This document shows, piece after piece, positions 199-60,486 of a stretch of DNA of 64,000 bases. The position numbers and the translations under genes were made by a program. The stretch is from Plumapathes pennacea (Eukaryota; Cnidaria; Anthozoa; Antipatharia; Myriopathidae). The DNA is taken from NCBI GenBank assembly GCA_964036295.1, contig OZ038462.1:36865680-36929679 (forward strand), in the 5' to 3' direction. The notes beneath the pieces were generated by a model. That model saw only the letters and a program-made list of their open reading frames with translations, was not told the DNA's origin and did not search any database. How positions within the stretch are numbered: position 1 is the stretch's first letter; every line of letters starts with the position of its first letter.

Positions 199-1843
199 CT
201 GTCCTCATACCAAAGCGAAGACAGGTATGCAAGTTTGGTTCTGTGCTGGGCACGTCCTAAAATCATTTGAGCAGATGTTAATATATATATTCTATGTAAT
301 ACTGGGCAGAACTCCGGCCTTTTTACTGTTATATGGTGTATTGGGTAGATATCAATAACCAATGGTTAATTTAGCTCGCTAGATGTACACTGTATAACCG
401 TCACCAAGGTTTGTACATTCGTGGCACTTTGCACACGCTTCCTTTGCTATTGCAACCCACAAGTAGGTGTGCCGGCAAGCATAAACTGAATGATCGTTAC
501 CTGGTGTATACGTACGAATTCCCTTGCACTCTTCACTGCACTCTCAGCACGATCCATATGGAGAAAAGCAAGAGTTCTCCCTTTCAGAGCGTTTTTCATC
601 TGGCGTGCACGGATTGGTATTTTGTTCTCGAGGATGCGATAAGCTGTGTTAAAATATTTTAACGCCTTATCTGGACGGGTTTCATCTTTGGGATTCAACA
701 ACCTGTATCCCCTTGAGGCGACGCTGTCTATCTCCTCCTAAAAATATATATATAGCTAATTTGAAGTAGTCGTATACTGTTGATGATAATGTATTCCTTG
801 TGTAAAAGGTATTGAACTGTTTGGTTCAAACGAGACACTGCTATTATTTCTTTCCATTGAACGACTCAACTGCTTCTAAAGCAGGCATTTTTAACTGTTA
901 AGATTCACAGGATGCCTTACCTGTGAAATGCGCATGATCTCCTTTGAAATCTCTATGGACTTGTCAGGTTCATTACTTTTAAAGTAGGCATCAGCAAGAC
1001 GGCGTTGTACTTGTATTCCAAATTTATCACAGCTTAACCGACTGAGTTGTAAACATTTCCGGAGCTCATTGAGAAAATAGATCACAGTCTTTAGGTCCTT
1101 TAGGGATTCTGCTGCCGTCCAAGCGTCTCTCAGCTCTACCTCATGACTCTGGATATTCTGTTTTTATAAAGAAAGATTCTTTTATAGACATTGCCAAACT
1201 ATTAAAGTACCATCGGATTGGTAAGCTATAAAGTCAAAAGAGCCTCTCGGATGTGCAATATTATAATTTATCTAATAATATAGACCGTGGTCATGCGCTA
1301 GAACCAAGCTTAACACGCGGGATTGCTCATCGGCTTTTTTGTAGTTTTGCCTCATGTGCAAGCAAGCATGTGCTAGACAACCAAATATGAAAAGGTAAAG
1401 CAAAGAGAAGTTTGACCACGGCCTTAATCAAAACACGACTACTCCTCGATACAACTGCCGGAATTATTTTATCTTCTCCGCATTTTTGCGGTATGAGTGA
1501 AAGATGCGTGCTTCGCCTTGGTTACTGGCACATCAGCCTATCCGTACCTTAATGTAATAATAATGATAATGGTGATGGTGATGGTGAAGGTTATGCTGAT
1601 AGTGATGGTGATTTGTGAGCTCTAGTTACATAAGAAGTGCTGTGCATACTTTTACTAGAAGAGCAGAGAACGCACCTTTTTTTCATTCTGGAACTGTGGT
1701 AAAAGTTGGAGACCTTTCAGCAGTCTCTTCTCCATTTCTGTTGGAGAGTACTCAATAGCTAGGCCGTAGCACCGCTCGGAGAGATCAAATAGACCATCTT
1801 TGTATAGACGACATCCTCTAGTTTTCCACTTTTCTGAATCATT
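199..1843 (-). CDS. GENE L exons 12-15: TPR exons leading into the missing ankyrin/helicase part
   Basis: Exons 1843-1676 (56 codons, NDSEKWKTRGCRLYKDGLFD), 1157-921 (79 codons), 737-501 (79 codons) and 256-199 (58 nt). Each has a same-phase homologue in GENE R: 56349-56185, 55835-55596, 55468-55205 and 54234-54177. The last is tiny but diagnostic: both copies are exactly 58 nt and encode EP-x-(L/I)-HT-x-LRF-x2-RTG across a phase-1 junction. Because the next R exon opens ankyrin and helicase sequence in phase 1, the same should begin left of base 1 here. An incomplete gene is therefore expected from the window cut rather than from decay. Confidence 0.75.
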
Positions 1844-10800: not shown

Positions 10801-12105
10801 ACTTTTCGACGATCTCCTCACACAGTTCCGGCGAGTAATCCTCAGCTAGTTGGCGAGCAACGAGCAGAACATGGCGCGCGTCGCTGTGCTTTCTGGAGTT
10901 CATTAAAGCAGCTGCGACATCCTTCAAATGGCGGGCTTCGTTCTGCATTAGGCATAAAGTTGATGCGGAGGAGAAACATGGATACATGTGTCATGTCGGA
11001 TAGTTCAACTCTATCAGCAACAGATCCGATCTACCCACATTTTCGAAATCCTTACCTTAATGAATTCAGCTTGTCCAGTTTGGGACCTCAGTGCTCGGAT
11101 ATCTTCCTGTGCCTTATCGTCAACCCCTGCAATTTGCCGAACTATTGCTCTTTGCGACAAGATCTCAGGTGATTCGATTGAGTTTTCGTAGGTTGCGACA
11201 CACAGCTCCTTGATCATTCCAAAGTAGTACCAGCGAAACGAATTTTCTTCTATCCATAGCAGCCAAGTTTGTAACTGTACCCAAAGTAATGGTATACATT
11301 TTTAAATACGAATGGTATGAACCCAGGAGTGCAAACAGTATGTTGGTTTTGATCGTCAGGGTAAAGATGTTTTCTAAACTTACATGTAAACTAAAGTAAA
11401 AAAAATTCAGTAGTTTTCAATACCAATGACCACGAGGTACTAAATATTAAATTATTCATCCTGAAAACATGCATCGACCTGTAAAATGTCATGGTTTGCG
11501 AGCTCCTATAGCAAGTAAGCAAAGCTATAAAGACTGTCTGAGTAAATGTTTTATATTATTGGATCGAACTTACATCTGAAAGTGTGTAAAACCAATGAAT
11601 CCACAAAAATTTCTTCAGCGAAGAAACTATCCTCTGACATTTGCGATCTTATATAAGTGAGGTCTCTTATTAGCGGCGGTGTGTGTTTTGTATTCTACAG
11701 TTCAAGATCGTGCATCATTTGTTTTTCTTGTAAAACGGTTGTACGATTGGTAGAAACTTCGGAGTTTTAAGTAAATACGATCCCCCAATCTTTCATTTAA
11801 CAGAAGACGTATTGGACACACACCTATGTTATAACAGGGTTTTCTGTATTCCGTTTAAAACTTACCTTGTCAAAATCTGGATGCTTTGCTTGAATTAGAG
11901 GCAGCTCATCATGCCCATTTAGGGAAATCACTTTGATCAACCAATAAGAAACGCAATAAAAGAGAACAAGTTCTACTAGGCTCACTGCTGCTTGGCAGGT
12001 CCACGGAACAGCCCAATACAGAAACATGACATCCGTGGCCACAAATGTTTTCAAGTTCTCCTTTGGGTAGTATAATGAAAACGCAACTTGTTTAGAATAA
12101 GGCAT
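199..12105 (-). CDS. GENE L: TRANK1-like TPR gene with membrane-spanning N-terminus (partial, 15 exons)
   Basis: Predicted exons in coding order: 12105-11866, 11274-11056, 10942-10709, 9906-9769, 9381-9250, 8913-8782, 7914-7699, 5068-4880, 4785-4573, 4072-3815, 3539-3309, 1843-1676, 1157-921, 737-501, 256-199. All are phase 0-0 except the last (58 nt, phase 0-1), giving 967 codons plus one base before the window ends. The last six exons are collinear, with the same phases and clear protein similarity, to six GENE R exons; in R the next exon carries ankyrin and helicase. The helicase part of L is therefore probably just outside the left edge. The start ATG at 12105 has A at -3. Joining of the first six exons to the TPR part rests on phase, strand and order, not on transcripts, and a missed exon between 8782 and 7914 is possible. 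Related to TRANK1 (TPR and ankyrin repeat-containing protein 1), whose molecular function is poorly known. Confidence 0.75.
2008..3167 (+). mobile_element. Inverted-repeat DNA transposon with 9-bp target duplication (Mutator-like candidate)
   Basis: The two ends form near-identical inverted repeats of about 75-80 bp, starting CAACCTCGTTCCCA at 2008 and ending TGGGAACGAGGTTG at 3167. Both are flanked by the same 9 bases, CTACCTACT (1999-2007 and 3168-3176). A 9-bp target duplication is typical of Mutator-like elements. The 1.16-kb interior has no long open frame, so it is non-autonomous. It lies in the GENE L intron between the exons at 3309 and 1843. A further copy of the terminal motif occurs near 62266-62285. 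Confidence 0.75.
3309..5068 (-). CDS. GENE L exons 8-11: TPR exons
   Basis: Exons 5068-4880 (63 codons, starts EKNAKKWIQRGIQLLEDKEE), 4785-4573 (71 codons), 4072-3815 (86 codons) and 3539-3309 (77 codons). The W-x2-RG opening is the signature of TRANK1-type TPR exons in all three genes here. The third exon contains GRGAARYLQ, shared exactly with the GENE R exon at 60162-59935. The fourth (EVAKTWKAKADDEKDSS, then YLLSLECDDESD) matches the R exon at 58734-58513 along its whole length. Exons 8 and 9 have no counterpart in R, so L has two additional TPR exons here or R has lost them. The 4072-3815 exon uses a weaker donor (TTG|GTAATT). Confidence 0.75.
6155..6765 (+). repeat. Direct tandem duplication of an approximately 310-bp unit
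   Basis: The block from about 6155 to 6466 is repeated at about 6467-6765. Both copies share CTTCTAAGGGCTTGTG, the CACCGCATGTCA motif, the ACTCCAAGTTCCGATTGC stretch and a final TGTTCGCTTTCCACTGACTA. The first copy has a longer A-rich tract near 6230-6260. The final motif also appears near 20595-20615, so the unit belongs to a dispersed family. It lies in the 2.6-kb GENE L intron between the transmembrane exon and the next TPR exon. Confidence 0.85.
6767..7040 (-). pseudogene. Relic of an arginine-rich repeat ORF of probable transposon origin
   Basis: Read on the minus strand, one frame gives a strongly basic, repetitive peptide containing TERSREARLQKRREQARARR, broken by an in-frame stop at 6944-6942, then continuing with RQIRLEKRRQ and ETAPQRDQRLKANRELQ. 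The recurring E-x2-RExRLxxRRE pattern resembles the N-terminal basic repeats of some invertebrate Helitron/PIF1-like proteins; that likeness is from memory and not certain. The frame runs directly into the 310-bp tandem repeat family next to it, so both may be pieces of one mobile element. It is not part of GENE L. Confidence 0.3.
7350..7535 (+). repeat. Dispersed G-run repeat, copy 1
   Basis: Begins with a long G tract, then CCCATATAAAAG, GCTCGTCGTAC, two TTAGG-type motifs and GGTACCGTTTAGGGGTCGGG, followed by GTCAGTCGAATGA. The same order of motifs occurs at about 12703-12865. The G tract could form a quadruplex. No coding potential. Confidence 0.7.
7699..7914 (-). CDS. GENE L exon 7: two-helix transmembrane exon
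   Basis: Seventy-two codons beginning KQRSVKELVAISLLLVYTIY and ending MDPSKRN before GTAAGT. Two hydrophobic spans are visible: residues about 7-21, and about 30-52 (AIFVIAPFTTIVAVLWLVQMW). The loop between them contains two cysteines (CGSTWC). A basic, proline-containing stretch follows, then the TPR exons. GENE R has a two-helix exon in the same place directly before its TPR exons (60486-60314), so a hydrophobic hairpin ahead of the solenoid appears to be shared by both minus-strand genes. Confidence 0.6.
8782..9906 (-). CDS. GENE L exons 4-6: three tandem homologous exons of 44-46 codons
   Basis: Three consecutive exons (9906-9769, 9381-9250, 8913-8782; 46, 44 and 44 codons) encode copies of the same amphipathic/hydrophobic module. 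All are phase 0-0 with CAG acceptors and GTATAT, GTACAA and GTATGT donors. Each begins with an aliphatic helix (VFRVLKLIMAV, IFMALQLIIYV, VFLAFTLILST), then a shared (L/F)PQS core followed by (V/R)xLF, and ends in a Trp-Leu-rich tail (WTFLQ, WNLLK, WTLLR). The exons recur about every 470-525 bp, so the locus grew by tandem duplication of an exon with flanking intron. All three frames are open, which argues for coding selection. The module is not a family I recognise; it could be a membrane-embedded or membrane-surface helix pair. Confidence 0.6.
10252..10506 (+). repeat. Short foldback element with palindromic TTTACACA array
   Basis: Bounded by inverted ACACTGGAAAAT-type ends (10252 onward and back from 10506). 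The interior is almost entirely degenerate TGTAAA/TTTACA motifs that can pair with one another. It is a small relative of the 1.2-kb element at 56513-57710. Confidence 0.65.
10709..11274 (-). CDS. GENE L exons 2-3: helical TPR-like exons
   Basis: Exon 2 (11274-11056, 73 codons) contains WIEENSFRWYYFGMIKELC and ends QAEFIK before GTAAGG. Exon 3 (10942-10709, 78 codons) begins NEARHLKDVAAALMNSRKHS and ends SEDTKK before GTTAGT. Both are phase 0-0, have the alternating helical pattern of TPR-type alpha-solenoids, and are close in size to the canonical 77-80 codon TPR exons further along this gene. Exon 3 has the typical layout of small residues in helix A followed by an LxxxARxL-type helix B. 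No catalytic motif is visible. The acceptor of exon 2 has a weak pyrimidine tract, so its 5' border is the least certain of the two. Confidence 0.55.
11866..12105 (-). CDS. GENE L exon 1: N-terminal hydrophobic exon
   Basis: Eighty codons starting MPYSKQVAFSLYYPKENLK. A long hydrophobic stretch follows (residues about 27-60, containing FLYWAVPWTCQAAVSLVELVLFYCVSYW), enough for one or two membrane helices, then an acidic tail ending DFDK. The donor after DFDK is GTAAGT, read on the minus strand at 11865-11860. There is no clear signal-peptide cleavage pattern, so a signal anchor is more likely. Whether this is really the first coding exon is uncertain: the frame stays open upstream of the ATG to about 12144 without a methionine. 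Confidence 0.55.
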
Positions 12106-35800: not shown

Positions 35801-38800
35801 CCTCCTCCTCGAGTCAAGTTTGCCGAGCGTTTACATGGAAAAAAGTTGTTCAGGGTAAACCGAGTCAAAGCTGGCCCTTTAACTCAGTTTATAAAGCCCA
35901 CGGATGACGGACCGAAGGAAGATCGTCTTATCGTTGAGTTTTGTGCTCTCGTGTGTTCAATTTTGCCGAAATTTTGTTTTTGACAGCCTTCCGTAAACGC
36001 GAGTTGTCCTTCCTGCTCGAGCCAAAGTGTTTACATAGAGAAAAATTGTTCCGCCACCCAGGGTCACCCTATCTTATCAACCGAGTGTCCTTGCCCCAAG
36101 GGTCACTCTGTCCCTCGAGACAAGTTGTGATTTGTCATTTAAACGCTTGCTTCGATTTATAAAGAGATGTATGAAGAGTTGGCACGCCCAGGGTGACTCG
36201 GGGGGAGGAGGGGAGAGAGTGGCTCGGGTCCCCGGGCCATTTTTTTCTCATATAAACAGGGCTTAAGAGGTGAAATTTTACCTTGAGTCCGACCAAGTTA
36301 CTAAATGACGTTGGAAATTTCCGCGGTGTCAGCTGCACATCATTGCACGAGGTGTAGTTTGATTATCACTGACATACAACAAATTGGAGTTATTTTAAAG
36401 CTCGAATTGTAATGTTTTCTCGGAACGAATATAGTGGTAGAATGTAGTGTAGCTGTGCCCATTATTCGTTATGCACTACTAGGAAGCGTTTGACTTATTT
36501 TTGTTTTTATTTTTGACTAGGAGATACCACTGCCATTACCGCTGACATTCCAAGCACAATCGTGACCAAGCTGATTGGGGAGGTTGTAAAGACAAAAGAC
36601 TGGAAGAAACTTGGCATCTTGTATCTCGGAGGTGGAGGGCGTGAATCATATCCGGTTGGTGGAGGGGGCCTGGCTTCAGGATGCGATACTTCTACAGTTC
36701 CTATCGAAGAAATCATTTCTTCGTCTTTACCCAATCGTTTTGCCCTTGTGTCAGCACTGTTAAAAGATGGTGCTCATGGCAGTGGTCTGGGAGGTGGGAA
36801 TTCGATCGTGGTTCCTTTGGCAGTGGCCATTCAGGAGAGGGACCTTGCTTTGGTGGAAGACTTGGTTAAACATGAAGCCGATCCTTGCGCTTTGACAGCG
36901 GACGGACAAACTCCACTTCATGAAGCACTGAGAATTGGCAACAGCGAAGGTTGGTGACAAAATGAATGCCTTTTAAACCATTTGTATATGACACTGAAAA
37001 AAGCGGAAAAGGACATCCGAGGAGATTGGCCATTTTAACTGCTACCAATTGGTCGAATATAATAATTTGACATAGTTTTAGGAAGTATATTACGTTATAT
37101 TTAATATCATCTACATGCAAACTAAAGGGCAAGAATATTTTCATGGGTCATACCTTATACGATTTATATGTTCATCAATTATCCTTCCTTCCTTATATAG
37201 GTAAATTTCAGTTCCTGAAAGCCTTACTCAAATCAAATCACAAAGGCATCCGCGATGTCCAAAATTCTGAAGGCAGCACACTATACCACTACACTACGTC
37301 AGGAAAGTGCACTCAACACAAATGCGAAGCAATAAGAACTCTAAGGGATGCCAAAATTAATCCTCTGCTACCAAACAAGCGAGGAAAACTTGCAATTGAT
37401 TGTGTAAAACCAAGGGACAGTCGCTGGAAAATGCTGAAGAGTGCAATGGATTGTCTCGATTCAGCACAGATTCCGCGTCTGGCTAAGAGTGATACAGACC
37501 TAGAGGATTTGGTAGATGGAAAAAAGTCGTTTGAGGTGCCTGACGCAGCCTTTGATAAAGTTCTCGACGGTGCTCCCATCAGCAAAGCAGTAATTAAACC
37601 AAAAGCCACTGATATTAACGTTATCCAACAAAAGAAACCGTTGGATAACACGTGGAAGAGGGTTCAGACATTGATAGATAATTTAGTTGTCGAAAAGATT
37701 TTACAGATTGAAGAAACCGAAGAAGATGACATGGAGAGGGAGACTAACGCCACAAAAAATCAACAGGAGGCAGTACCACATTTGGAAAATAAGCTTCCAG
37801 AGGAGATGAAAGAAGTGGTAACCAAGCAGGAAAATACAGACGAAGTCGAGGAAACCGAAGAAGCGGATGTTTATGAAATAATAAATTCGTCGGTATTTGA
37901 GAATCTCCCATGGGAAGTAGACTGTACAGATGACGTTTGGCGAATTCTCCGAAGTGATAGGATTGACGAAGCTACAAAACGAAGAATAGTATCCAAGATC
38001 CAGGTGTTGGCTGATGGAAGATGGAGTAAAACGATGTGCAAACGCCTTGAGGGACCTGCAAAGCAACAAGGCATCTTGTTGTACGAGACAAAACTTACAA
38101 AAGGTGCCCGAATTTTGTGGGAGAAGACCATCGCGTTTTCTGCACGTTGCAGTCAGGATGCCCAGTTTCGAGTTCTAAAGGGGCAAGGTAAAGGACTGAT
38201 CTACTCAGAGATAATCCGTGTTTGGGATGTTGTCCTAGATCATAATGCACTGGATCGCAGGATTAACAAGATTATCAAATCTCATAGACGTGGATTAAGC
38301 TGCATCATCAAAAAAGATCTGAAAGGCATCAAAAGAGATGACCAGAGGAATGACACGTCCACGAAGGAATGTCTTCCCAACTATTACGTGACGAAAGCAG
38401 AAGATAATCAACAATCAAACAGCACAGAACTAGCTGTCAAGCATCGGGCAGAGTCTCTGCCAGGCCAGGACGAAGTGGCAAACATTTTTTTCCCACCTGC
38501 AAGTCCAAATGATCAAGAATATCACATACTCAAGTTTTATACCTTCGGCACGGCCTTGGTGCGAACTATTCTGGAGGGTGACAGTGCAAAGAGAGTAGAT
38601 TTTCCCTTCAAAGCCACAGAGCGCGAGGATGCTATCATTAGGCTTCGGCAAAAGCCTCCATGTCCTGTAATACTCATTGGAAGGAGTGGGACTGGAAAGA
38701 CGACTTGTTGCCTGTACCGTTTGTGGAGTGAATTTCAGACCTATTGGGAAGGAGCTGCCACTGGAGGTCCTCACATGCCAAAGTACAAAGAATCTGAGAT

Positions 38801-41800
38801 TGAAGAAAAGGAAGAGATTCAAACAAGTGACTCTGGAGCACAGGAAAATGTGGTCCACATTGAAATAGAATCGGAGAATAATGAAGAAACGGCAGCTGCA
38901 ATCTCGGATTGTGAGAACGCATTCGGTTCTTCCGACAGTTTTGAGCATTTGCACCAATTGTTTATAACAAAGAATTCGGTGCTGTGTAGTGAGGTCCAAA
39001 AAACCTTCCGTGAACTATTCCATGCATGTCCTTCTGTTTTAGAACATACCAGAATAGAAGACCATGCTTTGCCTGGAAGGATACAAGATGTCGAAGAAAC
39101 CGCATGGCCATTGTTCATAAACTCTCGAAACTGGCTTTTATTATTGGATGCATCTTTGCCTGGCGAACCGTTCTTCAAGAGAAATCCGGATGGTAGCCTT
39201 TCACGAAGAATCGAAGGCTGGGGGGAAGAAGACAACCACTTGCAGTATATCCCGGCTGACGATTCTGATGACGATGAGGACAACGAAGAAGACAAAGACG
39301 AAAACCAAGACAAAACAGAGCACGGAGAGGAAAGCGGACGTTCGAAACAAACCCCACCAAAAGAAGTAGATCCAAGGAGAGAAATCACTTACCAAGTCTT
39401 CAAACAAGACATCTGGCCAAAGATGGGGAAGAAAGCAAAGGGTAGTGTTGAATATCACCCCACTTTAGTTTGGACAGAGATAAGGTCTTTCATTAAGGGA
39501 TCAGCAAAGGCACTTCGTAGTGAAAATGGCGTGCTGTCATTGGAGGATTACCATAACCTTGGCAAAAAGATGGCCCCTAACTTCTCTGCAGATCTCCGCG
39601 AAGATGTGTACAGGTTGTTTGAAATTTACGAGCGTGTGCGGTCAAATCTTCGTATGTTTGACGAAGCAGATCTCATATTCAACCTTCACCATCGCTTACA
39701 GGCGATACCTGCTCCCCAGTGGTCAGTGCATCGATTGTACGTGGACGAGACGCAGGACTTCTCACAATCCGAGCTTTCGCTGCTTATTCGTTGTTGCCGC
39801 CATCCGAACGACATCTTCTTCACGGGAGACACTGCGCAAAGCATCATGCGGGGAATAGCTTTCCGTTTCGAAGACCTGAAGTCGCTGTTCTTCTACGCTA
39901 ATGAAGAAGCTGTAGCTCGTGGTCATCGGGATTTGATTAGAGTCCCGGACAGGCTGTTCCAACTGACTCACAACTACCGCTCACATTCAGGAATCCTCCG
40001 TCTGGCTTCAAGTGTGGTTGATCTGCTTCTGAACTATTTCCCGGAATCATTTGACAGGCTAGAAAAGGACCAAGGCATGTTTGATGGTCCAAGACCGGTA
40101 CTCCTTGAATCTTGCAATCTCACAGACTTGGCGATGATCATGCGTGGGAATCGACGACAAACATCGCGCATCGAGTTTGGTGCCCATCAAGCTATTCTTG
40201 TTGCATCTGACGAGGCCCGAGATGCGTTACCCGACGAATTGAAGCACGGTCTGGTCATGACCATCTACGAGGCCAAGGGATTGGAGTTTGACGACGTCCT
40301 CATCTACAACTTTTTCAAAGACTCGCAGGTACTACGTTACCCTTAAAACGCGCAATTTAGTCTCGAATATTTCTTTCTTCCTAATTATGGACGAAATGTC
40401 TGTCTAGTTTGAAGAAAAAAGGGTATTCGAAAAGACATGCCCACGGATTAGCAATTTCAAATTTTCTGCGGGCTCAGAATTGGCTGTATCTTTTGTCGCA
40501 CTTTCCTTGTTTACGTTGTAATGTAAAGTAATAGCAGTAAAATGATCGTTACAGTTATGAATTAACTGTTAAGTTAAAAGCAATGGCAAAGGTAGCCCGG
40601 AAAAAAATCCAAACTTCGGCGGGAATCAAACCCATGACATTCCCGATACGTCAAGAACCCAATAATATATTTAATAATGCTAATACAATAATATAATAGA
40701 CATGTAGTGATGTTAGAATTCTCTGAAATGATCTTTAAAGCTCCAATCTATTTTGTTCTGCAGGCAAATAAGGAGTGGAGGGTCGTGACGGCTTTTTTAA
40801 AGGAAAGATACGTGGAGCAAACGAGACACAACACAGGACTAGTGGAAATATCGGAAGAATCGCTGCGAGCGAAGTCTCGACCTCTGGAGTTTGACTCAGA
40901 GAAGCACAGAGTCCTTAACTCGGAGTTCAAGAACCTCTACACGGCAATAACACGAGCCCGGGTGAATGTTTGGTTCTTTGACGAAGACAAGATGACTCGG
41001 GCACCAATGTTCGAGTATTTTCAGATGCTTGGCCTTGTGGAAGTCGTTTCCAGAGAGAACGAGGAGGAAGGCCAAGAACCTTTGACCCCTATGTTCGCAG
41101 AAAAGTCAACTACAGCAGAATGGAAAGAGCGTGGCATGTTCTTCTACAAAAAACGCCTCTGGGAAGTGGCCATTAAATGCTTCAAATTTGCTGGAGATGA
41201 GCTGATGGTCCAAAAGAGTCAAGCACATCTACAGGCTTCAGAGGCGAGACGATGGTCTTCTGAGAATCGAAGCCGTATGAGAGAGGAGTTCCTGAAGGCT
41301 GCCGAAATGTTCATCGATTGCAAAATGGTGGAAGAGGCAGAAGTGTGCTTGTATAATGCAAGGGAGTGGTTACTACTGGCACAACTCTATGAGAAGACAG
41401 AAAAGGTGGGGAATGCTACTTTCATATGATAGAAACAACTGAAGTCCTTTCCATAGGCTTCTACTAAGTATATCTGTTCTTATTCAAGCTAACCATAGTG
41501 AACTTAGTTGGATAATTGGAGGGAGCTAGTTTCAGTCAATTAAAGGCATGAATATTATAGCTCAGATAAAGATTACCAAACGACAACTTGAATTCCGTAA
41601 CAGAGTAGCCTCAGAAACCCCCCTACCTCTTTATTGAAAATTTAATTAGCATTATCGAAATGTTTTGGTGTTATAAAACAAATCATGCCAAGTCGCTCCG
41701 AGACCTTTTGCTATAAAACCTATTTCCATAACAGGCACAACTATCCCGTTTAGTGACCCCTTTATCTATTTTTGGCCTCGTTTACAGTAGAGCAAATTCA

Positions 41801-50036: not shown

Positions 50037-50042
50037 TTTATT
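50037..50042 (-). terminator. Candidate poly(A) signal of GENE R
   Basis: AATAAA on the minus strand, overlapping the GENE R stop codon (50043-50041). It implies an extremely short 3' untranslated region and fits a gene truncated by rearrangement whose new end already carries a polyadenylation hexamer. Confidence 0.45.
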
Positions 50043-50613
50043 ATATTGATGAGCCAGTTGATCCTCTGGCGGCTAGCTTCCTTTGTAATTTCATCCGCAA
50101 ATCAACATCTCCTGCATAGTCTAGGGCCACTCCCGCTTTTTCAGTCATGTCACAGTCAAGGCAGACTTTTGCCACTTTTAGATGCTCTGTGGCTGAGCTG
50201 CTCGCGTTTGTCTTGGCAAACTTGATGTGAGCTTTGCACTTTGCCGCCAACAGGAAGTCCCCGGCGTTCATGAAGGCCGTGGATGCCGCTTTCCAGCGTT
50301 TGTCTTTGTACAACGTCATTCCCCTTTCAGTCCACTCCTCTGCAGTTGACTTCTTAGCAGTAACCCCCTCGTCTGAGATCGTGGCAAGCTGGGAATTTTG
50401 AAAGAATTCGAACATGGGTCTTCTTGCTTCTTCGTCCTCGTCGTAGAACCACACGTTTGCGCGAGCTCGAGTGATGGCTGTGTAGAGATGCTTCAACTCA
50501 GAGTTGAGGATTTTGTGTTTTCCTTCATCGAACTTCAGTGGACGAGTCTTTGTGTAGGCTTTAGGTTTTTCATCTGTTCCAACGTTTGCCACCACCCTCC
50601 ACTTTTCTTTGGC
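50041..50613 (-). CDS. GENE R last exon: helicase motif VI and truncated TPR tail
   Basis: Starts AKEKWRVVANVGTDEKPK after TTTTAG and carries motif VI in LYTAITRARANVWFYDED, then a TPR-like segment (EEWTERGMTLYKDKRWKAA) parallel to GENE P exon 16. Instead of a donor where P has GAKTEK-type sequence followed by GTGGGG, the frame runs on to RGSTGSSI and stops. No GT donor continues the frame at the position equivalent to P's splice. The loop between motif V and VI is about 20 residues shorter than in P. Confidence 0.85.
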   Translation of the reverse strand, partial: AKEKWRVVANVGTDEKPKAYTKTRPLKFDEGKHKILNSELKHLYTAITRARANVWFYDEDEEARRPMFEFFQNSQLATISDEGVTAKKSTAEEWTERGMTLYKDKRWKAASTAFMNAGDFLLAAKCKAHIKFAKTNASSSATEHLKVAKVCLDCDMTEKAGVALDYAGDVDLRMKLQRKLAARGSTGSSI

Positions 50614-50810
50614 CTAAAATAATCGATCGTAGTTTTAAGGTCTTATTACTGCTGAAAAATTCGAGTATACTACTACGAGTGTAGCCAAGGTTTCTGCGGG
50701 TTAATCAGTTTCTTAGTAGTGCATGCCTCGCAATCGCTACCACTTTCGTCCTTTCAATCTGTCGACCTTTTCAAACTTTGGTTAGTTTATGTGTAACATT
50801 CATTTTGATT

Positions 50811-50890
<80 letters not shown>

Positions 50891-53800
50891 TAATAATAAT
50901 AATGATAATATAGGTAACCAAGAAATGTTAGAGTATGGATGGAACAGTTTTGTATGGTTAATTGGTAACTACTATTCTACTATTTTTACCGTAGCAACCT
51001 ATTGAACACCGTTCTCCACAGTCAATCGAAGACACACTGAAAATGAGCATACCTCGGAATCCTTGAAAAAGTTGAAGATGAGAACGTCGTCGAACTCCAG
51101 TCCCTTGGCTTCATAGACAGTCATCACCAGTCCTTCTTTCAGCTCGGCTGGAACGGAATCACGGGCTTCTTCTGACGAGACTAGGACTACCTGGTGGGCT
51201 CCCAGCTCGATAGGGCTGTTCCCTCTCTGCTGACCGTTTAGTAGTTGTCTCAAATAATCGAAATCGCATGACTCGATGAGCACAGGTTTAGGTCCAGAAA
51301 ATAGTCCTTGTTCCTTATCCATCGTGTCAATAGACTTTGGGAAGTACGTCTGGAGCAGTTCGACTACACTGGACGCCAGGTTCACAATACCAGAGTGGGA
51401 ACGATAGTTGCACGTTAATTGATGGATCTTCTTGGGAATATTAACGTGTCTCAGCTGCGATTCTTTGTGGAAAAGAGACTTTAAATCTTCAAATCTAAAG
51501 GACACTCCCTTCATGATGGTTTGAGCGGTGTCACCTGAGAAAAACAGGCCATTGGGATCGCGGCAGCAGTGAAGGAGCAGGAACAATTCTGCTTGTGTAA
51601 GGTCCTGGGCTTCATCCACGTAAAAGCGATCAACTTGAAATAAAGAAAGTGGAGCATGCTGGAGACGTTTGTACACGTCATAAACAAGGTCGCACTCATC
51701 AAACATTTGGAAACGCTTCTTCTGATCTTTATACTTGAGATAAAAGTCGTAAATCTTTGCCCGGTTACGATGGAAGCTTGGTGCCATCTTCTTTCCAACC
51801 TTCTCGTACTCCTCGAGGCTCAACTCCCCAGATTGTAAAGCATCGAGCGAACCCTTTATGAACGACATGATTTCCGTCCACACTAGGCTTGGTTGAATCT
51901 CACAACCAATCTGGGTCATTGCTGGCCATAAGGTAGAGGTGAAGACTTCGTAGGTTACCATCTTTCTGACGGGCTCATTGTTTACCTGTGACTTGCTCTT
52001 CTTCGCTTTTCTGTCGTTCGCTCGGGCGACATTTGTTGTTTTCTGCAATGATGTGCGGATCTCGCAGTCCATTCCTGTAACAGTACAACGGAGTCGCCCG
52101 TCCTGGTCTCTTGGGAAGAACGTCTTGCCTGGCAGTGATGCGTCTAGAAGCACGAGCCACTGATGCACGCTCAAGAATTGAGGCCAAGAATGTTCAGGCA
52201 CATCTTGAATGCGCCATGAAGGAATGGAAGGGTAATTCGTAGGACTGAAATGGGCATTCCGTAAGCAGCGAAACATTTTAGCAATTTCTCCACAGAGAAT
52301 GCTGTTTCTGGAAATAAACAGTTGGTGGAACCTTTCGCAATTATCAACTTCATTCTTTTCAGTGAATTTGGCCGACAGAGGGATGGCATCTTGAAAAGAT
52401 TGTGCTGCATTATCTGGCGCCTCTTGGCGTGAATGGGTCGTTGTCACTTGGCTTGTTTGAGCTTCTTGTTGGTGCTTCACGGCAGACTCATGAGACTGAA
52501 GGGGGAGACTTGAAGGAAGCACCGCATGCTGAAAACTGTGGTATTCATTCCATAATCTGTACAGGCAGCACGTCGTTTTTCCTGTTCCACTGCGACCAAG
52601 AACAATGATGGAACACGCAGGGGAGGGCTTCAGGTTGATTATTTCCTGCTCAAGCTCCGTTACCTCAAATGGGTAGTCTACTCCCTCGACGCCAGACAGC
52701 ACATTGTTGATCATATATTTGGTCATCGAATAGAACTTCTTGATTGCATGATATTCCCCATTGGGAGAGCATTCCACCGGCAGAAGTTTTTCTTCTTGGC
52801 TGCTTGCGGCTATGGCCAAGGGTGCTCTGAAAGATTTTCTAATATTTCTTGCTTCTCTGTCGACATGATCATGTTGGAATACAATTTTCCAGATACGAAT
52901 AATTTGGACATCTTTCCCGTGTCCTGACGCGAAACCCTTAGCTTCTTGCCAAAGAATTCGCTGTGCCTTGGTCACCCTTGTTTCATAAAGGGTAATACCA
53001 TCCTCCTTGGAATTGTGTAACCTTGTGGCCAACTTTTTGGTTCGGCGTCCTTCTGCCAACTGTCGAATTTTTTTTACAATTTGCATCTTCGTCCAATTAG
53101 GAACCTCACTGTTTATTGCATGGAGAACATCTTTGACTTCTGTCGAACACATCACTGGAAAATTAGGATTTTCAAAAGAAAACACTGTTTCAGTAGCTTC
53201 TTTGATTCCACTTTTACTCTCAGGACTTGTAAGTGGCTTATCTGGCGTTTGTTCTTTGGCTTGAAAGCTAGACTCATGGGAAGGTTTCAGATTGCTATGT
53301 TCCATTGGTGGGCATGTTGGATTAGTTACTTGTGTCCGGGTGGGCATAGAGCATGAGCCGTTTGATCTTTCAGGGATCGTGCAAAGATATTTTGATTGAG
53401 CGGACGAGGAGTGCTTGCCCCCCTTGTGGAGAAATTCCGATCTACCTTCATAGATTGGTCCTTCTTGAATAGCAGTACGGACTAATTTCCGGAGACGTTT
53501 GAAATTCGCGTTTTGAAGTTCCATTTCCGTGTGGTCATACACCAGTTGCTGTAAGATTTTTTTTCGGGGATCGCTGCTGTCAAGAGTACATCCGGGAAGC
53601 ATTCCTTGGTTGTCTTTGATGAGAGGATCGGCTTCATTTTCCGTGAGGATTTGGATAGCGTATGGGTCGTCGGAGTAGCCCTTTTCAGCTGCTACGTGGT
53701 ATAGTGTGCATCCAAATTCATCCCTTTCATTGATCTTGGACTTCGGTACATTGTTGATCTTGGAGGTAAAGAGTTTGTATTCACCTTTGGAAGTAAGACA

Positions 53801-56800
53801 ACAGGAGTAAGAACTGAAAGCATTCACAGTGCGGAATGTAGACTTACTGACCGAGGCTACGTTTACACTATACCGAATAGCTTTCCGTAACATCGCGAAA
53901 ACATACCGGGTAGGCCTTCCGTTTACATTATACGCTGTTTTTGGAATTGTTGAATGTGTCAAAGCCTCTCCGGACTGGTCTCGTGTTTGCACTGTAGCGG
54001 AAAGGGTTTTTGGCCAAAGCCGCCATTGTTAAATGTGTTTCCATAGCAGCCCAAACTCCTTTCTCCCTACAGTCAAAAGTGTCTCAACGTATTTGGCACG
54101 ACTAATTTCGTGGGAAGATATGTAATGCAAGCTTCAAATGATTCGTGTTTTTTTATACAAATTTTGAAAACCTTACCTGTTCTTAAGCAGAAGCGAAGCC
54201 AAGTGTGTATTTCGGGCTCTTTCCTTTTTATATTCTGAAAACAGAACCAAAAAAAGATATAACATTGGCTGCTTTAGATGCTGGAGAAGCTTATACAGTC
54301 CTGTCGTCTGGCGTGTGTACATCAGATATAGTATTTCATAGTTTGTAGATTGACTGTCTAAAACCAAAGAAAAATGATTGAGGTTTCCATTATACGCAAG
54401 GCTTGACTGTATATATTATATGATCTTTTCTGCTCAGTTCAAACATTTTTACCAGCCAAAGTAATTGGCAATTATTGTTCTTTTCAACAACAGCATGAGA
54501 CCAATCAGCAGTGCAAGAAAACGCAATCGGACTGATTGACCAAGAATGCTGCCAAACTCATTTCGACCTATCTGAATAATTAGCAAACGCAAAATCAAAA
54601 CAAGCGCTCACACGATTACTTTCGATTACAAAAATAAATCTAACCCACGACTTTGAAAAATTAAGCAAGCGCTCCCCTTCGAATAAGCGCTCCCCTGACT
54701 TACCCTATAGATTTAACATAAGCGCCCAGGGCGCTTCTTCGAAGATTTACCGTAAACTAAAAAAGATCATTTGTAAGAAGATAAAGGAGTTTCTAAATTC
54801 GGTCATCTGGAAAGTCAGCGACACTACTGTTATCGGTATCAAGGCCCTTTATAAAATAACTGCTACTAAAGCTGGTGTTACACTGGTCGATTTGCAACAA
54901 CGATTTGCAACGCCGATTACCTCCAAATTCGCGCAACGGTGTTGAAAGTTTATGAATCGCTTTCAAAAACTTGCAACGCGTTGCAGCACTGCAAACATCG
55001 CAAAAAATCGTTCGCAATAGGGTGTTACACCTGAACAATTTTTAGCGCAACATCGTATCGTTGCAAATCGTCGCCGCAAATCGACCAGTGTAACACCACC
55101 TTAAGGAATGCATTTGATGTTTATCAGATGCACTTAGTTTACACAATTAGACGAATAATGCGTCTGAACAAATTGGTCGCCTGTAGTATTAAAACGGTCA
55201 TTACCTGATGCACAAACAGTTCTGCAGTCTTGAACGCCTTTTCTAGGTTGTCCATTTGCAACAGAGTAAGAGTTTTGCCTTTTAACGCTTCCTCGAGTAG
55301 ATCACCCTCGCTGTATCCACTGAAATGCGGTCGGCTTCGCGTTCGAAGTGCGTCTAGGGCCACGGTGAAATACTTCAAAGCCAATTCCAATGCCGGTTCA
55401 ACTGGACTGTCTTCACGCTCGCCGTTCAGCATTTTAAATCCTCTTGAGATGACCTCTTCTATCTCTTCCTAGAAAAAAAACAACAAACAAACAAACAAAC
55501 AAACAAACAAACAAAAAAAAGATTGCGTCAAAAAGCAATAGTAGCCATTCCCTATAGACCTTTCAAATTCCGGCAAACGATTTGCAGTAACTTGCCTGTG
55601 ATATAGTTAGGATTTTGCTGGATATCTCTAGGGATTCGTTGTAACCCCCATCCTGGAACAGGACCTTAGAAAGGCAGCGACGCACTTCGGTTGCAAATTC
55701 ATTGCCCTTCATTGTTTTGCCTTGTAAACATGTCAGTATTTCTTCCAGAAGGAACACAGCGTCTTTGAAGTTGTTCATTGATGCTGCTGCCTCCCATGCA
55801 TCTCTTAACTCATTAGTATGAACCACCATTTTTTTCTGAAGAAAGGAAATGAATGCGCAGTGTAAAATAGTACAAGCGTCAGTGAAAATTAAATTAAGGA
55901 TAATGCTAATGCAATGAATTGATAAGCATTATGTTCTCGCATTTGTTTGATTGTTTTACTTTTTGAGAAGCAAGACTATTTGCCTCATTTGTAACTCGAG
56001 CAGCGTGTAATGCAAGCCTTTATCTTCAATTTCAGTTTTGTCTTTTCAATTTAGCATTTTCTTCTTAAGGTTTGCTGGTTCAGCAATACTCTAGCATAGA
56101 GGATAAGAACTTATTTCCACCTTCCCATCTACCCTTATATAAACATTCATATGAATAGTGCGAATGAAATTTCCCTTGGCGTACTCTGTTTGCCTTGAGC
56201 AAGGCCACTAGCTGGAATCCTTTCAACATTGTTTCCATGGGTTGTGTCGGTGCGTACTCTATCGCAAATTTATAACACAGACCGGCGAGAGCAAATTGAT
56301 CGCCCTTGATCAAATGCTGCCCTCTTTCTTGCCACCTTTCGGCCAGGGCCTACAAGAGAAAGTATTTACGTCAAATATGACGTACGGTATAGGTGCCGGA
56401 TGTTTATTAATTTTTATCAACCAACATTGTTGAGCAGAAAAATCAGAAAAATACTGCTGATCAGTCAAACCTGTGTTGCGGCCCCGTATTTAGCGAACAC
56501 AGTACGTTGTCACACTGGAAAATTCTATCCTCTTACATACTGTGTAAATAACGCAAAAAGGTTATGTAAATCATAGTTTACATACAATTTACGCTGCGTG
56601 TAAACACATTTACTTGTAGTAAAATATGTTTTACACATATTTTACATATGTAAAATACACAATTGTAAAATGTGTATAAATACTTATAAATAGAATGTTA
56701 ATATGAAATACATTTTTATATACTGTGTAAATAGAGTAGAAAGCTATTTAAATTATGATTTACATATAGCTCACACTGCAGAAGTGGCCGAGTGTTCGAA

Positions 56801-59800
56801 ATCGTGTTCGAGTATTGATTCGCTAATAGTCCCACAAGTGGCAAGCAGGGAGCAAATCTCAGCGAAAGGGAAGTTGAAAGACCGCTGAAACTCAGTCCAA
56901 GGAATTACTACAAACAGACTGGATTTCCAGTTCCTTTATGAATGCAAGGTAACGTGTTCCGATCCGTGGTTTATGTTTGAACCGCGGTGACGGTATTTTA
57001 ATAGGCGATTGTAAACAGTAATGAAGGTGCAGGAATGATTTTTAATTCTCGCTATTTAGCCGAATCGAAATGTCCTCGCTTTCTGAATTTCTGAACAGTG
57101 TTTATCGTCTAACATAAAATAGCTTTTTCTTGGTTTGTATTTCATTTTTTTTTTTGGTTTGGTCGTGTCAGCACGACGTTTCCCAACTGAGAAATACCTG
57201 AATAAATTATAAATTGCAAAAACACTCACTCGTATTTTACGGGGTCCGGCTAGTTTACATAGACTTCACACAATATGTAAAACCTGTTTTGGGGGAATTT
57301 ACACAGTATGTAAATATGAATTTACAACCATTAAGTGCGAATGTTTACATGCATTTTACACAGTATGGAAACCTTGTTTTGGGCATGGAAATTTACACCA
57401 CATGTAAATTATAATTCACAACTATGAACGGTTATTTACATGAAATTTACACAGTATGTAAAATCTGTTTTAGGGGAAATTTATATAACATGTAAAGTAT
57501 GATTTACAAGGTGGAATTAACTGTGGTATTTTTGCTTTTTACATGCAATCCTACACACATTACTCACAGTTTACAGAATGTGTAAATTTCGTTTTAAATT
57601 TACACATTGTGTAAATGGGTAGACAGCGTGTAAATTTCATTTTACAAGCAATAAATGGGTTGTTTACAGACACTTTACACAATATGTAAGAGGATAGAAT
57701 TTTCCACTGTCAAAGTCCTGAAAATATTCTCAGTCAGATATTGCAAACTTTACATTAAAGGGAGGCACCCTTCGTACAGAAGTCAAAAAGGGTAATTATT
57801 ACACGACTTCACATTTTCGAGTGCAAATACGGGCCAAAACGAGTGCAAAGATGGGAGCGTATTGCACTCGTCAGGAACCAGATCAACTGGTTTATTAGCT
57901 TACGTGATCAGTTTTCGCAAGCAAAGTTTACGAACGCGTCATTTTTTTTGTTCCATTTTGCGCGCGGCGAGAATGTTTGCCCTGCTTCGTTTGTCGTGTA
58001 ATAAACAATTTATTACACGAAAAGTCGTGCAATACGGCTGTATTTTTACTCGTCAGTTTTATTTTTTCTCGCCTGAAGCAGGATCGAAAAAAATAAAATC
58101 GACTCGTAAAAATACTCCGCCGTATTGCACTCCTTCCCGTGTAATAACCTCTTTTTATTATTTTTACCTGTACTGAACAGACAGTTGTACTGATGGACTC
58201 TTGTCACGCTGAACGTCAAAAAGAAGAGATGTGCACGACGGAAGCAAAAAAACGCGCAAATTTTTTAGACAATTGTTTTCAGTATGAACTTTAAAATGGT
58301 CGCTTCGTTACATCTCCAAAACCTACATTTTCAGTTGTAGCTAGATGCATTTTAAATGTTTGGCCGCACCCAAAGTTAAAATTTAATGGGCCTGTATTAA
58401 GCACTCTAAAATTCCCCGAGGAGGTTTGACGCAATACAAGACATTCAGTTCACAGCATGATGTTTGGTTAATTTAGGCAACTAAGACTACATTCGTAACA
58501 AGTATATAATACCTGGGACTGTGCTTGTCTCGCCCAGGTACTCCTTTTAGCGTGCTCAATAGCGTCTTTAAAAGCCTTCAGCTGGAACTCAACATCGACG
58601 AGTTCCTCAAGAGTGGATAGACGAAAGTCTTCATCTGATTCATCGCTGCACTCTAGAGCTAGAAGGTAGAATTTCACTGCTCTCGTGGAGTCTCTCTCTT
58701 CGTCTGCTTTTGCTTGCCATCTTCTTGCCATCTCCTGATTTGCAAGACATTTGCATGTGCAGTATGCGGATCAATCAGTGAAACTGAAACGAGTCAGTTA
58801 ATGTCTTAAACTAATTTGTTACCTAAAGACGGTAAGTAAGTTGACTGTTTAACTCCTTCACTCCCAAGTTCAAAAATGCAGACTCCGCACAGCCACCGGA
58901 ATGGGAGGTGTCAACTCTAACAAACGCTGTATGAGCGCTACCATGTAGACACAATGAAGGTCGTCCCAAAAATCTGGAACATCCTCCCGAAAACAATTAA
59001 CCCTAAAGTTAAAGGTTCATAGCACTCTGTTGAACACTCTGGATGTTTGTAGAACGTGTTCAAACATTAAGGGGTGGAGCGGGTCGAGCATGCACTCGTT
59101 TTAAAATCTAGATTCCCTGAACCACCATTTCGTGCATTTTGAGGTTATTTTAAACAAATGTAAACGCTCAAACCAACCTTTTTAAAACCGCACATTTTGC
59201 CAGTTTAGTGGTAGAATTAACTGCTAGGCGTAAATATTAGTCATTCTCGAAAACTGGATCAGTTGAGTATCATCCTCCGAGGGTGCTGCTCAGTAAAAAC
59301 CTGGCCCACTGCGTCAAAAACCGCTAATGATTTACTTGCGAGCGCCCAAGGCGCAAGCTGGCTTGGGGTCCGGGTACTCATCATAATTTTGGGTGGGAGT
59401 GTGTAGCCCGGTCCTAAAAATCTTTACCATACTTTAGACCAACATATCTGATTTTCTATACCCTATTTCAGACCTGACTCCAAAATGTATACCCTATTTC
59501 AGACCTGACCTCAAAACGTATACCATTTTTCAGATTTATTTTTCCTGTTGCAACGATTTCCGCCCGGTATTTACTTCCATTTGTCGTAAAATGTCCGCGG
59601 CGACACATTTCTGTTAAAATCATACCCTATTTCAGACCAAAAAGGCCGCAACCATTGTATCTATGTACCGGACATTTCGTAAATACAGGAGTGCTGCCTC
59701 CAACATTTCGTATGGAAAGGGAAAGAACGATTCTCGCGCCAGCCCTCCGGAAACTTTGGAAGTTTTCGCTGCATGAATTTCTTTTTCAACCACATTCAGC

Positions 59801-60486
59801 CAGAAGGAAAGCCTCCCAGATGTCCCGGATATTTTTTGTGATGTCCTGATATTATTTTAAGTCTCCCGGTAAATTTTTGTCTCCCGATTCCCGACAAAAT
59901 ATTTAAATTACGGGCCTTGCTGTACTATTCTTACCTTTCCCTCACTGGGACAGAGATTTTTACCATGGCTGATGTCTGTTTCTCCTTCCTTAATTTTGCT
60001 CTGTAAGTACCGTGCTGCACCCCTACCCAGGAACGACTTGCCTTGGAGGATACGGTCCCGTGGTGCACGTTCCAAAACGCGCGAATACTTCTCTTCGGCT
60101 TTCGACAAAAGATTGTGATCAAACCGTATTTCGCCTTTTCTCATCCATTCCTGTGCTTCCTCCTGGTATTAACAACACCGTACGGGAATTTTATCAATAT
60201 ATTTACCTGTGCTTTACGTATACTATAGAGCACATCTAGTCTAAACGTTTATTCAATTCGTATTACAACGCATTCTCCCTAATGCATTATTACTCAGTTA
60301 GATTTATACTCACAATCTCCTTTTGAGGATCATGCTTTTTCGACTTTGGAGTAAGTCGCTTGTATAACCAAGGAACAACGACCGATAGGAGAGTGGCAAT
60401 AGCTACTAGCTTCAGTACCTTCTCTTCCAAAGTACAAAGTAGCCCAAACACAAAAAGGCTTCCCAGTGCATTTAGGATCTTTTCTC
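50041..60486 (-). CDS. TRANK1-like: GENE R: membrane-anchored TRANK1-like TPR/ankyrin/helicase protein lacking the C-terminal region
   Basis: Exons in coding order: 60486-60314, 60162-59935, 58734-58513, 56349-56185, 55835-55596, 55468-55205, 54234-54177, 53784-51053, 50613-50041, after an uncertain first exon near 62087-61905. These nine sum to 4,655 nt, about 1,550 aa. Order: two hydrophobic helices, TPR exons, ankyrin, acidic/polar linker, complete UvrD-like helicase, one short TPR-like tail. All helicase motifs are intact, so this looks like a working gene despite ending about 1,100 residues earlier than GENE P. Six consecutive TPR-type exons match GENE L in order, phase and sequence. P and R are convergent neighbours; R is closer to L than to P in its N-terminal half, while its helicase matches P closely. 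Confidence 0.83.
50811..50908 (+). repeat. (AAT)n microsatellite
   Basis: About 26 near-perfect AAT units followed by interrupted AATGATAAT. Lies in the GENE R intron that separates helicase motifs V and VI (50614-51052). The open frame reading as polyasparagine across it is an artefact. Confidence 0.95.
51053..53784 (-). CDS. GENE R ankyrin + UvrD-like SF1 helicase exon
   Basis: A 2,732-nt exon entered in phase 1 after TTCCAAAG, starting with GEYKLFTSKINNVPKSK and ankyrin-like DEFGCTLYHVAAEKGYSDDP. Helicase motifs in order: Walker A GRSGTGKTTCC (about 52597-52568), YVDEAQDL (motif II, near 51628-51605), GDTAQTIMKG, NYRSHSG, and EAKGLEFDDVLIFNFFKDSE (motif V), ending at GAG|GTATGC. Every motif has a direct counterpart in GENE P exon 15, including the C-C-LYRLW sequence after Walker A. 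The acidic Asp/Glu/Lys insert of P is missing; R has a shorter polar stretch (KSKSQVNNEPVRK) there. Confidence 0.92.
54177..58734 (-). CDS. GENE R TPR exons 3-7
   Basis: Exons 58734-58513 (74 codons, EMARRWQAKADEERDSTRA), 56349-56185 (55 codons, ALAERWQERGQHLIKGDQFA), 55835-55596 (80 codons), 55468-55205 (88 codons) and 54234-54177 (58 nt). All phase 0-0 except the last (0-1). Each matches a GENE L exon in the same order. Compared with L, the 55468-55205 exon has a nine-codon insertion (near RPHFSGYSEG). The 55835-55596 exon uses a GC donor. The 58-nt exon encodes EPEIHTWLRFCLRTG-type sequence and sets the phase for the helicase exon. Confidence 0.82.
54873..55098 (+). mobile_element. 226-bp MITE with inverted GGTGTTACACTGG ends
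   Basis: Left end TGGTGTTACACTGGTCGATT; right end is its complement, ending GACCAGTGTAACACCA. The interior is rich in GCAACG/CGTTGC motifs. The element sits in the GENE R intron just 3' of the exon ending at 55205. Partial relatives lie at about 16570-16690 and, more distantly, 25180-25390. No target duplication was resolved. Confidence 0.75.
55481..55515 (+). repeat. (CAAA)n microsatellite
   Basis: About eight CAAA units plus A-rich flanks immediately upstream (in coding direction) of the GENE R exon beginning at 55468. On the minus strand it supplies the T-rich pyrimidine tract for that acceptor. Confidence 0.9.
55594..55595 (-). other. Non-canonical GC splice donor
   Basis: The GENE R exon ending at 55596 reads TCACAG|GCAAGT on the minus strand. 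The homologous GENE L exon at 921 ends TTCACAG|GTAAGG. The CAG|GCAAGT context is the usual one for a functional GC-AG intron. Confidence 0.7.
56513..57710 (+). repeat. 1.2-kb foldback element built of palindromic TTTACACA motifs
   Basis: Ends are inverted: CACTGGAAAATTCTATCCTC at 56513 and GAGGATAGAATTTTCCACTG ending about 57709. The interior contains dozens of degenerate TTTACA and TGTAAA motifs, often as TTTACACA-x-TGTGTAAA palindromes, plus a unique non-repetitive core (about 56780-57200). It lies in a GENE R intron. A 255-bp relative with the same ends is at 10252-10506. Confidence 0.75.
58027..58131 (+). repeat. Inverted repeat (GTGCAATACGG family)
   Basis: GTGCAATACGGC with GTATTTTTAC on the left pairs with GTAAAAATAC and GCCGTATTGCAC on the right, around an ATTTTATT/AATAAAAT inner pair. 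Adjacent sequence (57795-58015) contains further TTACACGA/TCGTGTAA inverted motifs, so a larger nested element is likely. No coding role; it is intronic in GENE R. Confidence 0.65.
59456..59560 (+). repeat. Tandem ATACCCTATTTCAGACCTGA repeat
   Basis: The phrase TATACCCTATTTCAGACCTG occurs twice about 38 bp apart, followed by a degenerate third copy (TATACCATTTTTCAG) and another near 59620 (CATACCCTATTTCAGACC). Intronic in GENE R. Confidence 0.75.
59935..60162 (-). CDS. GENE R exon 2: first TPR exon
   Basis: Seventy-six codons: EEAQEWMRKGEIRFDHN, then KAEEKYSRVLERAP and GRGAARYLQSK, ending CPSEGK before GTAAGA. The GRGAARYLQ block is identical in GENE L (4072-3815). It follows the membrane exon directly in phase 0, so the solenoid starts about 20 residues after the second hydrophobic helix. 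Confidence 0.82.
60314..60486 (-). CDS. GENE R membrane exon: two hydrophobic helices
   Basis: A 173-nt exon with a strong pyrimidine tract before ACAACAG and a strong GTGAGT donor. In the frame that joins the next exon in phase 0 it reads GEKILNALGSLFVFGLLCTL, then a short EEK turn, then VLKLVAIATLLSVVVPWLYK, then a basic KRLTPKSKKHDPQKE tail. Two hydrophobic stretches of about 13 and 18 residues form a possible membrane hairpin, with the basic tail predicted to be cytosolic. It must be entered in phase 1. Confidence 0.65.

Follow-up and report, generated by a model that had tools for sequence, protein, structure and literature searches.

Nucleic-acid sensors of the helicase type are, as a rule, soluble proteins that depend on adaptors to reach a membrane. 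The present work concerns two genes, referred to here as R and L, which are located in a stretch of 64,000 nucleotides of the genome of Plumapathes pennacea (assembly GCA_964036295.1, contig OZ038462.1, positions 36,865,680 to 36,929,679 of the forward strand; hereafter the window), and whose predicted helicases would carry membrane segments of their own. Positions are those of the window, with the numbering continued past its right end where needed. Among the described proteins, TRANK1 (TPR and ankyrin repeat-containing protein 1) likewise unites TPR-like repeats with an ankyrin-like stretch and, at the C-terminus, a UvrD-type helicase, and on account of this architecture R and L are taken by us to be putative TRANK1-like proteins. 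R and L differ in having hydrophobic N-terminal exons, which are also not seen among 25 exons chosen from their paralogs M, N and P. In its motif set, and in its matches to the structure 4c2u, the NCBIfam model pcrA and the Pfam model PF00580, the R protein resembles the UvrD, PcrA and Rep helicases of superfamily 1A (SF1A), but it would be a eukaryotic multi-domain protein with predicted membrane segments, and its pcrA match (expectation value, E, 2e-7) is far below the NCBIfam equivalog cut-offs. The nearest precedent for a large multi-domain superfamily 1 (SF1) helicase at a membrane in antiviral signalling is ZNFX1, which a review describes as a cytosolic protein that MAVS localises to the mitochondrial outer membrane (PMC11959080). 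ZNFX1 has an ARM domain and, in that account, reaches the membrane via MAVS, whereas R and L have predicted membrane helices of their own and other repeat domains; with this protein as the nearest precedent, sensing by R and L is a reasonable guess and no more. No membrane-anchored TRANK1-like protein appeared among the listed titles and opening lines of abstracts on TRANK1, TPR-and-ankyrin proteins, ZNFX1 and UvrD-like helicases, and a literature search pairing TRANK1 with cnidaria found no paper.

A sequence-only reading of gene R had proposed that it encodes a helicase tethered to a membrane, and our results bear this out in part. A predicted gene model in which hydrophobic exons are joined to the helicase is the most economical one for both R and L; however, the tether is read from the sequence and R is without an identified initiator. 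We lean, a little beyond an even judgement, towards the interpretation that R and L make membrane-anchored cytosolic helicases, which would constitute a two-gene branch of the TRANK1-like SF1 family.

Predicted gene models of R and L

Gene R (50041-60486, minus strand) was modelled with nine exons (E1 to E9; Table 1), whose splice sites were placed by hand. After a split first codon these exons form a single frame of 1551 codons including the stop, which is located at 50041 and is reached in the same frame from the TPR exons. The hydrophobic exon E1 contributes 57 open codons in the frame that continues into the TPR exons, and its splice sites are good (acceptor AACAG/GAGAA and donor AGATT/GTGAGT, the slash marking the junction). 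The intron that separates E1 from E2 is of 151 bases, a length into which a boundary between two genes would fit only with difficulty, and this supports the placement of the hydrophobic exon in the helicase gene. Gene L, when read from an ATG at 12105, is a chain of 16 exons, all of which are entered in phase 0, with 1044 codons and 0 stops; its helicase exon sits to the left of the window. Six of these exons, 363 codons together, are hydrophobic. One of them (7914-7699) contains two hydrophobic stretches, has a good donor (GTAAGT) and an acceptor that scores 0.96, and is found in the place that corresponds to R E1, in agreement with the earlier claim that the hydrophobic exon is not a one-off.

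If, however, the hydrophobic exons belong to separate genes (viz. as the 3'-terminal parts of small genes for membrane proteins that lie upstream) or are non-coding, then the helicases would be soluble, with R starting at a methionine in E2 (residue 7) and L at an in-frame ATG located 6 bases ahead of the acceptor of exon 5068. Reading past the donor of the hydrophobic exon meets a stop after 7 residues in R and after 3 residues in L, and an AATAAA or ATTAAA site is present at 60253 in the R intron and 8 such sites in the 2630-base intron of L, as this explanation would lead one to expect, but in R both a terminator and a promoter would then be needed within 151 bases, and the donors of R E1 (GTGAGT) and L 7914-7699 (GTAAGT) are good and in phase 0 with the next exon. 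Similarly, R E2 contains an in-frame ATG, one is present in L just ahead of exon 5068, and R E1 is without an ATG of its own; however, the L TPR exon 4072 likewise lacks one, and the presence of the same layout in two diverged paralogs would have to be a coincidence. Further, in L, exons 5068 and 4072 are without an in-frame ATG, the first ATG in exon 4785 is at residue 64, and the interval from 7698 to 5069 contains no exon with an initial ATG that passes the filter. Due to this, the start of L would come naturally from the upstream coding exons. Based on these observations, we consider it somewhat unlikely that the helicases are soluble in this manner.

Hydrophobicity of the N-terminal exons

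R E1 contains two 17-residue stretches with mean Kyte-Doolittle values of 2.09 and 2.14 (1.51 and 2.05 in 19-residue windows), and these are followed by a basic tail with 6 K/R and 2 D/E. In the hydrophobic exons of L, eight stretches reach at least 1.4 in 19-residue windows and nine reach at least 1.6 in 17-residue windows, the maximum in 19-residue windows being 2.19. The values of 2.05 in R and of up to 2.19 in L are hydrophobic enough for a transmembrane helix, and they are above those of the chosen controls, viz. 25 N-terminal exons from M (8), N (8) and P (9), none of which reaches 1.6 (maximum 1.53). The control exons were chosen by hand, leaving out overlapping variants, readings other than TPR or ankyrin, some TPR/ankyrin readings (e.g. 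M 29090-29509) and helicase pieces; the candidates left out reached at most 2.46, in P region 11768-12064, which adjoins an apparent kinase gene and lies about 5.8 kb ahead of the first exon of P, the next highest value being 1.64 for longer variants of N 68527. The strongest hydrophobic stretch of L is contained in a single exon. Three stretches of L (residues 272-290, 316-334 and 351-369) cross exon junctions (at 278, 322 and 366, respectively), which is consistent with the predicted splicing.

The frequency of such exons was also compared with that in simulated sequence, using fixed acceptor, donor, phase, hydropathy and two-stretch criteria on both strands. In a 120-kb region, 503 exon-like segments on the two strands include 12 candidates at 5 two-stretch places, and no such place was found in the 40-kb P region, giving 5 places in 320 kb-strand. 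In first-order simulated sequence there were 3 places in 2400 kb-strand. Two-stretch hydrophobic exons are thus rare by chance, and the real sequence has more of them than chance would give. The five real places are those of R and L, one that overlaps the L array in another frame and two that are antisense to helicase exons; the latter three indicate that real sequence occasionally yields such segments.

Table 1. Predicted exons of genes R and L and the control paralog M in the window
Feature	Position	Strand	Remarks
R E1, hydrophobic	60314..60486	-	EKILNALGSLFVFGLL...VVVPWLYKRLTPKSKKHDPQKEI; phase 1 in, phase 0 out; without in-frame ATG
R E2, TPR-like	59935..60162	-	33/72 identical to L exon 4072-3815
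R E3, TPR-like	58513..58734	-	43/74 identical to L exon 3539-3309
R E4, TPR-like	56185..56349	-	21/55 identical to L exon 1843-1676
R E5, TPR-like	55596..55835	-	GC donor; 29/79 identical to L exon 1157-921
R E6, TPR-like	55205..55468	-	37/73 identical to L exon 737-501
R E7	54177..54234	-	
R E8, ankyrin-like stretch and UvrD-like helicase	51053..53784	-	GRSGTGKTT, DEAQD, GDTAQ, NYRSH, AKGLEFDDV
R E9, last helicase motif, C-terminal region and stop	50041..50613	-	TAITRARANV
L first coding exon	11866..12105	-	ATG start; one strong hydrophobic stretch; donor 9/9
L exon, TPR-like by eye	11056..11274	-	phase 0-0
L exon, TPR-like by eye	10709..10942	-	phase 0-0
L tandem hydrophobic exon (copy a)	9769..9906	-	
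L tandem hydrophobic exon (copy b)	9250..9381	-	
L tandem hydrophobic exon (copy c)	8782..8913	-	
L hydrophobic exon	8470..8700	-	phase 0-0; donor 5/9
L hydrophobic exon at position of R E1	7699..7914	-	phase 0-0
L exon without counterpart in R model	4880..5068	-	phase 0-0
L exon without counterpart in R model	4573..4785	-	phase 0-0
L counterparts of R E2 to E7	199..4072	-	exons 4072-3815, 3539-3309, 1843-1676, 1157-921, 737-501, 256-199
M helicase part, control paralog	37071..41429	+	chosen N-terminal exons (from 21658) without strong hydrophobicity

Helicase and repeat parts

The UvrD-like helicase with intact motifs that had been read in R was recovered by profile search. The R protein matches UvrD-helicase (PF00580) with 28.1 bits against a cut-off of 23, and in a five-paralog alignment of E8 and its counterparts the segments GRSGTGKTT (Walker A), DE-QD, GDTAQ, NYRSH and KGLEFDDV are invariant; the TRARANV motif is in E9, outside this alignment. 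The UvrD C-terminal domain (PF13361) scores 22.5 bits, below its cut-off of 25.6, and the AAA models and UvrD_C_2 are also below theirs. When the helicase profile was compared with PDB, only DNA helicase II 4c2u (E 2.3e-5) and 4c2t (2.8e-5) were below 0.01. The helicase alignment had 0 relatives among 78 and 46 pattern matches in viral and genome contig collections, respectively. For the TPRs and ankyrin repeats, which had also been assigned to R, TPR-like exons and an ankyrin-like stretch are present, but all of the TPR matches are below the Pfam cut-offs (the best being TPR_1 with E 0.027 in R and TPR_12 with E 1.6e-4 in L), and the ankyrin-like stretch of R has no Pfam Ank match and only weak matches in PDB, of which the de novo protein OR266 has an E of 0.0034 and the ankyrin designs start at E 0.014. 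No chain named TRANK1 is present in that PDB list, which comprises 31 sequences with E up to 1.

Observations that weigh against the membrane-anchored interpretation

Several observations weigh against the interpretation that R and L are membrane-anchored helicases, and they concern the starts of the two genes, the relationship and codon choice of their hydrophobic exons, the predicted structure of R E1 and the state of the L helicase. In gene R, E1 is without an in-frame ATG, and no clear initiator exon was found when the sequence from 60.5 to 66.5 kb was scanned, the best short candidate (61911-61905, donor 8/9, encoding two residues and a split codon) being indistinguishable from chance. 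In addition, the acceptor of E1 falls within a codon, whereas all 16 exons of L are entered in phase 0. For want of an ATG in E1, translation would have to begin in an exon further upstream or at a non-AUG codon, and a possible start of the latter kind is a CTG at 60466, which has G at both -3 and +4. The first recognised exon of the divergent neighbour gene N is near 65.3 kb and, thus, the 5' end of R is expected between E1 and this position. The sequence upstream of R, from 60.3 to 77.5 kb, contains no convincing counterpart of L's first 514 residues, and a bacterial promoter scan is uninformative at this locus. In view of this, a soluble R product that starts inside the first TPR exon is also conceivable.

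For gene L, the frame of exon 7914-7699 is open upstream of its acceptor up to an in-frame ATG at 7980. If L starts at this ATG, with the last hydrophobic exon only, like R, then the exons that precede 7914 may not be part of it, and those from 12105 to 8470 would be a separate multi-pass membrane gene. The membrane-tethered helicase would be kept in this case and only the multi-pass part lost. The lack in R of any counterpart of these upstream exons is as this alternative would have it; however, these exons join 7914-7699 in phase 0 and run up to it without meeting a stop, and the acceptor at 7914 scores 0.96, and we regard a start of L at 7980 as unlikely. Among the exons that are in question here, 9906, 9381 and 8913 are mutual copies, with DNA identities of 74 to 78% over 66 to 110 bases; they are of 44 to 46 codons each, and acceptor, donor and phase are preserved in all three, which speaks in favour of the membrane-anchored interpretation. 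The ratios of nonsynonymous to synonymous substitution (Ka/Ks) among them are about 0.71, 0.59 and 0.73, which are only mildly below 1, and the differences are evenly distributed over the codon positions. Tandem exon arrays of such a kind are often mutually exclusive exons, and because of this L may perhaps be alternatively spliced at these three exons.

The relationship between the hydrophobic exons of R and L is also not firmly indicated. In a global alignment, R E1 and L 7914-7699 share 17/55 identities and end in KKHDPQKEI and SKMDPSKRN, respectively, and shuffles that preserve the hydrophobic class reached the R/L score in 56/2000 (global), 46/2000 (local) and, in a further run, 28/1000 cases. 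However, the best local alignment places R's first stretch on L's second, so that the registers differ between the alignments, a further alignment paired the two exons in yet another way, and the counts are also low when L 7914-7699 is compared with other hydrophobic exons of L (two at 35/1000 and one at 13/1000), which indicates that part of the R/L signal is shared composition. The homology of these two exons is therefore suggestive, but not strong. Codon choice was compared with a same-protein null derived from noncoding composition. The six hydrophobic exons of L have a z of 3.61, similar values being seen for the TPR exons of R (3.56), L (3.25) and M (4.51), but by itself the signal is weak for R E1 (z 1.13) and for the first exon of L (z 0.91), and 29/69 noncoding open frames score as high as R E1. 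The 69 noncoding frames, when pooled to 5059 codons, also exceed the null, with a z of 5.99 and a score of -0.031 bits per codon, and hence these values should be interpreted only in comparison with each other. Per codon, the scores are 0.015 bits for the L hydrophobic exons, 0.015 for the R TPR exons and -0.005 for the L TPR exons, and one antisense chance segment scored 0.156. Codon choice thus speaks for the pooled hydrophobic exons of L, but is uninformative for R E1.

With regard to structure, the earlier description of R E1 as a two-helix hydrophobic exon with a basic flank stands for its two stretches, its basic tail and its open frame into the TPR exons, but less so for the hairpin, as AlphaFold2 (given a two-row alignment of the R and L exons) predicts a single helix at 2-44, with a mean predicted local distance difference test (pLDDT) of 72.6 and a predicted template modelling score (pTM) of 0.32. 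A membrane hairpin in R E1 is thus no more than a possible structure. It can also be envisaged that the hydrophobic exon is spliced in, but that its product is cleaved or peripheral (signal-like, mitochondrial or amphipathic) and forms no stable transmembrane anchor, which would suit the shortness of R E1, the continuous helix and the value of only 1.51 for its first stretch in a 19-residue window. However, the second stretch of R reaches 2.05 and the eight or nine candidate stretches of L are hard to read as a cleaved signal, which makes this explanation improbable in our view.

Lastly, the helicase exon of L changes from one frame to another before Walker A is reached, i.e. there is a frameshift in this assembly, which could be due to decay, an allele or an assembly error. 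It is located at about 36864359-36864368 of contig C1, in a CT-rich stretch. If L were a decaying pseudogene and R a remnant, then there would be no functional membrane-tethered helicase, and both this frameshift and the tandem-exon ratios (0.59 to 0.73), which are not far below 1, would fit such a history. However, R is open throughout, the helicase core residues are invariant in five paralogs, nonsynonymous differences between R and L in E2 to E6 are well below synonymous ones, and a frameshift in a CT-rich stretch may be an assembly error or an allele. We consider the decay of both genes to be very improbable.

Other features of the two genes

In the R model, the donor after E5 is GC (55596/55595, CACAG/GCAAGT), and GT is present at the matching place in L. 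The intron between E3 and E4 contains, by eye, an AT-rich block (about 57709-56510) with many TTTACA/TGTGTAA units, and the ends of this block read as inverted repeats (ATTCTATCCTCTTACAT and its complement), resembling a small transposable element. In L, the last hydrophobic exon is followed by two phase-0 exons (5068-4573) before the exon that corresponds to the first TPR exon of R is reached, and none is present there in the R model. In the long intron of L the same runs of about 30 bases are seen by eye twice, near-tandem, at about 6760-6550 and 6460-6250.

Paralogs in the same genome

The genome (290 Mb, 24 contigs) contains five helicase members, viz. P(+), L(-), M(+), R(-) and N(+), and this number is a lower bound, as the searches score the best candidates only. 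All five are found in one cluster on contig C1, within about 265 kb (36680901 to about 36945171). L/M and R/N are head-to-head pairs, an arrangement that suggests the duplication of a divergent gene pair. In the helicase, R is 60% identical to L and 39 to 41% identical to the other members. When the genome was searched with R E1 plus E2 at E up to 0.001, R E1 matched itself only; at E up to 0.01, the TPR exons of R had no matches outside R and L; the hydrophobic exons of L matched only L at low E, with two weak others (E 0.07 and 0.6); and L's first three exons matched only L.

Proposed explanation and its significance

According to the interpretation that we favour, the N-terminal exons would encode membrane-inserted helices, from a single hydrophobic exon in the case of R and from as many as six (multi-pass) in the case of L, and this membrane part would anchor the proteins. 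Based on the positive-inside rule, the basic tails, i.e. the basic stretch that follows the last hydrophobic helix, would place the TPR solenoid and the helicase on the cytosolic side. The ATPase may then bind or remodel nucleic acid at the membrane surface, perhaps in innate immune sensing, although this step is speculative, as are the ligand, the identity of the membrane and any sensing role of R and L; the splicing, the R start codon, the membrane insertion and the topology of the two proteins are what we infer from the exon models. More tentatively, and short of an even judgement, R and L may be the first animal SF1A helicases with an intrinsic membrane anchor; in L, a multi-pass domain, formed partly via a tandem exon triplication, would be fused to a TPR/ankyrin platform and a UvrD-type motor to serve as a membrane nucleic-acid receptor or remodeller.

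If this interpretation is correct, a helicase with its own membrane domain would unite detection and the membrane in one polypeptide. Further, the clustered family provides a built-in comparison, as two of its members have strong hydrophobic exons whereas three are without them in the parts examined.

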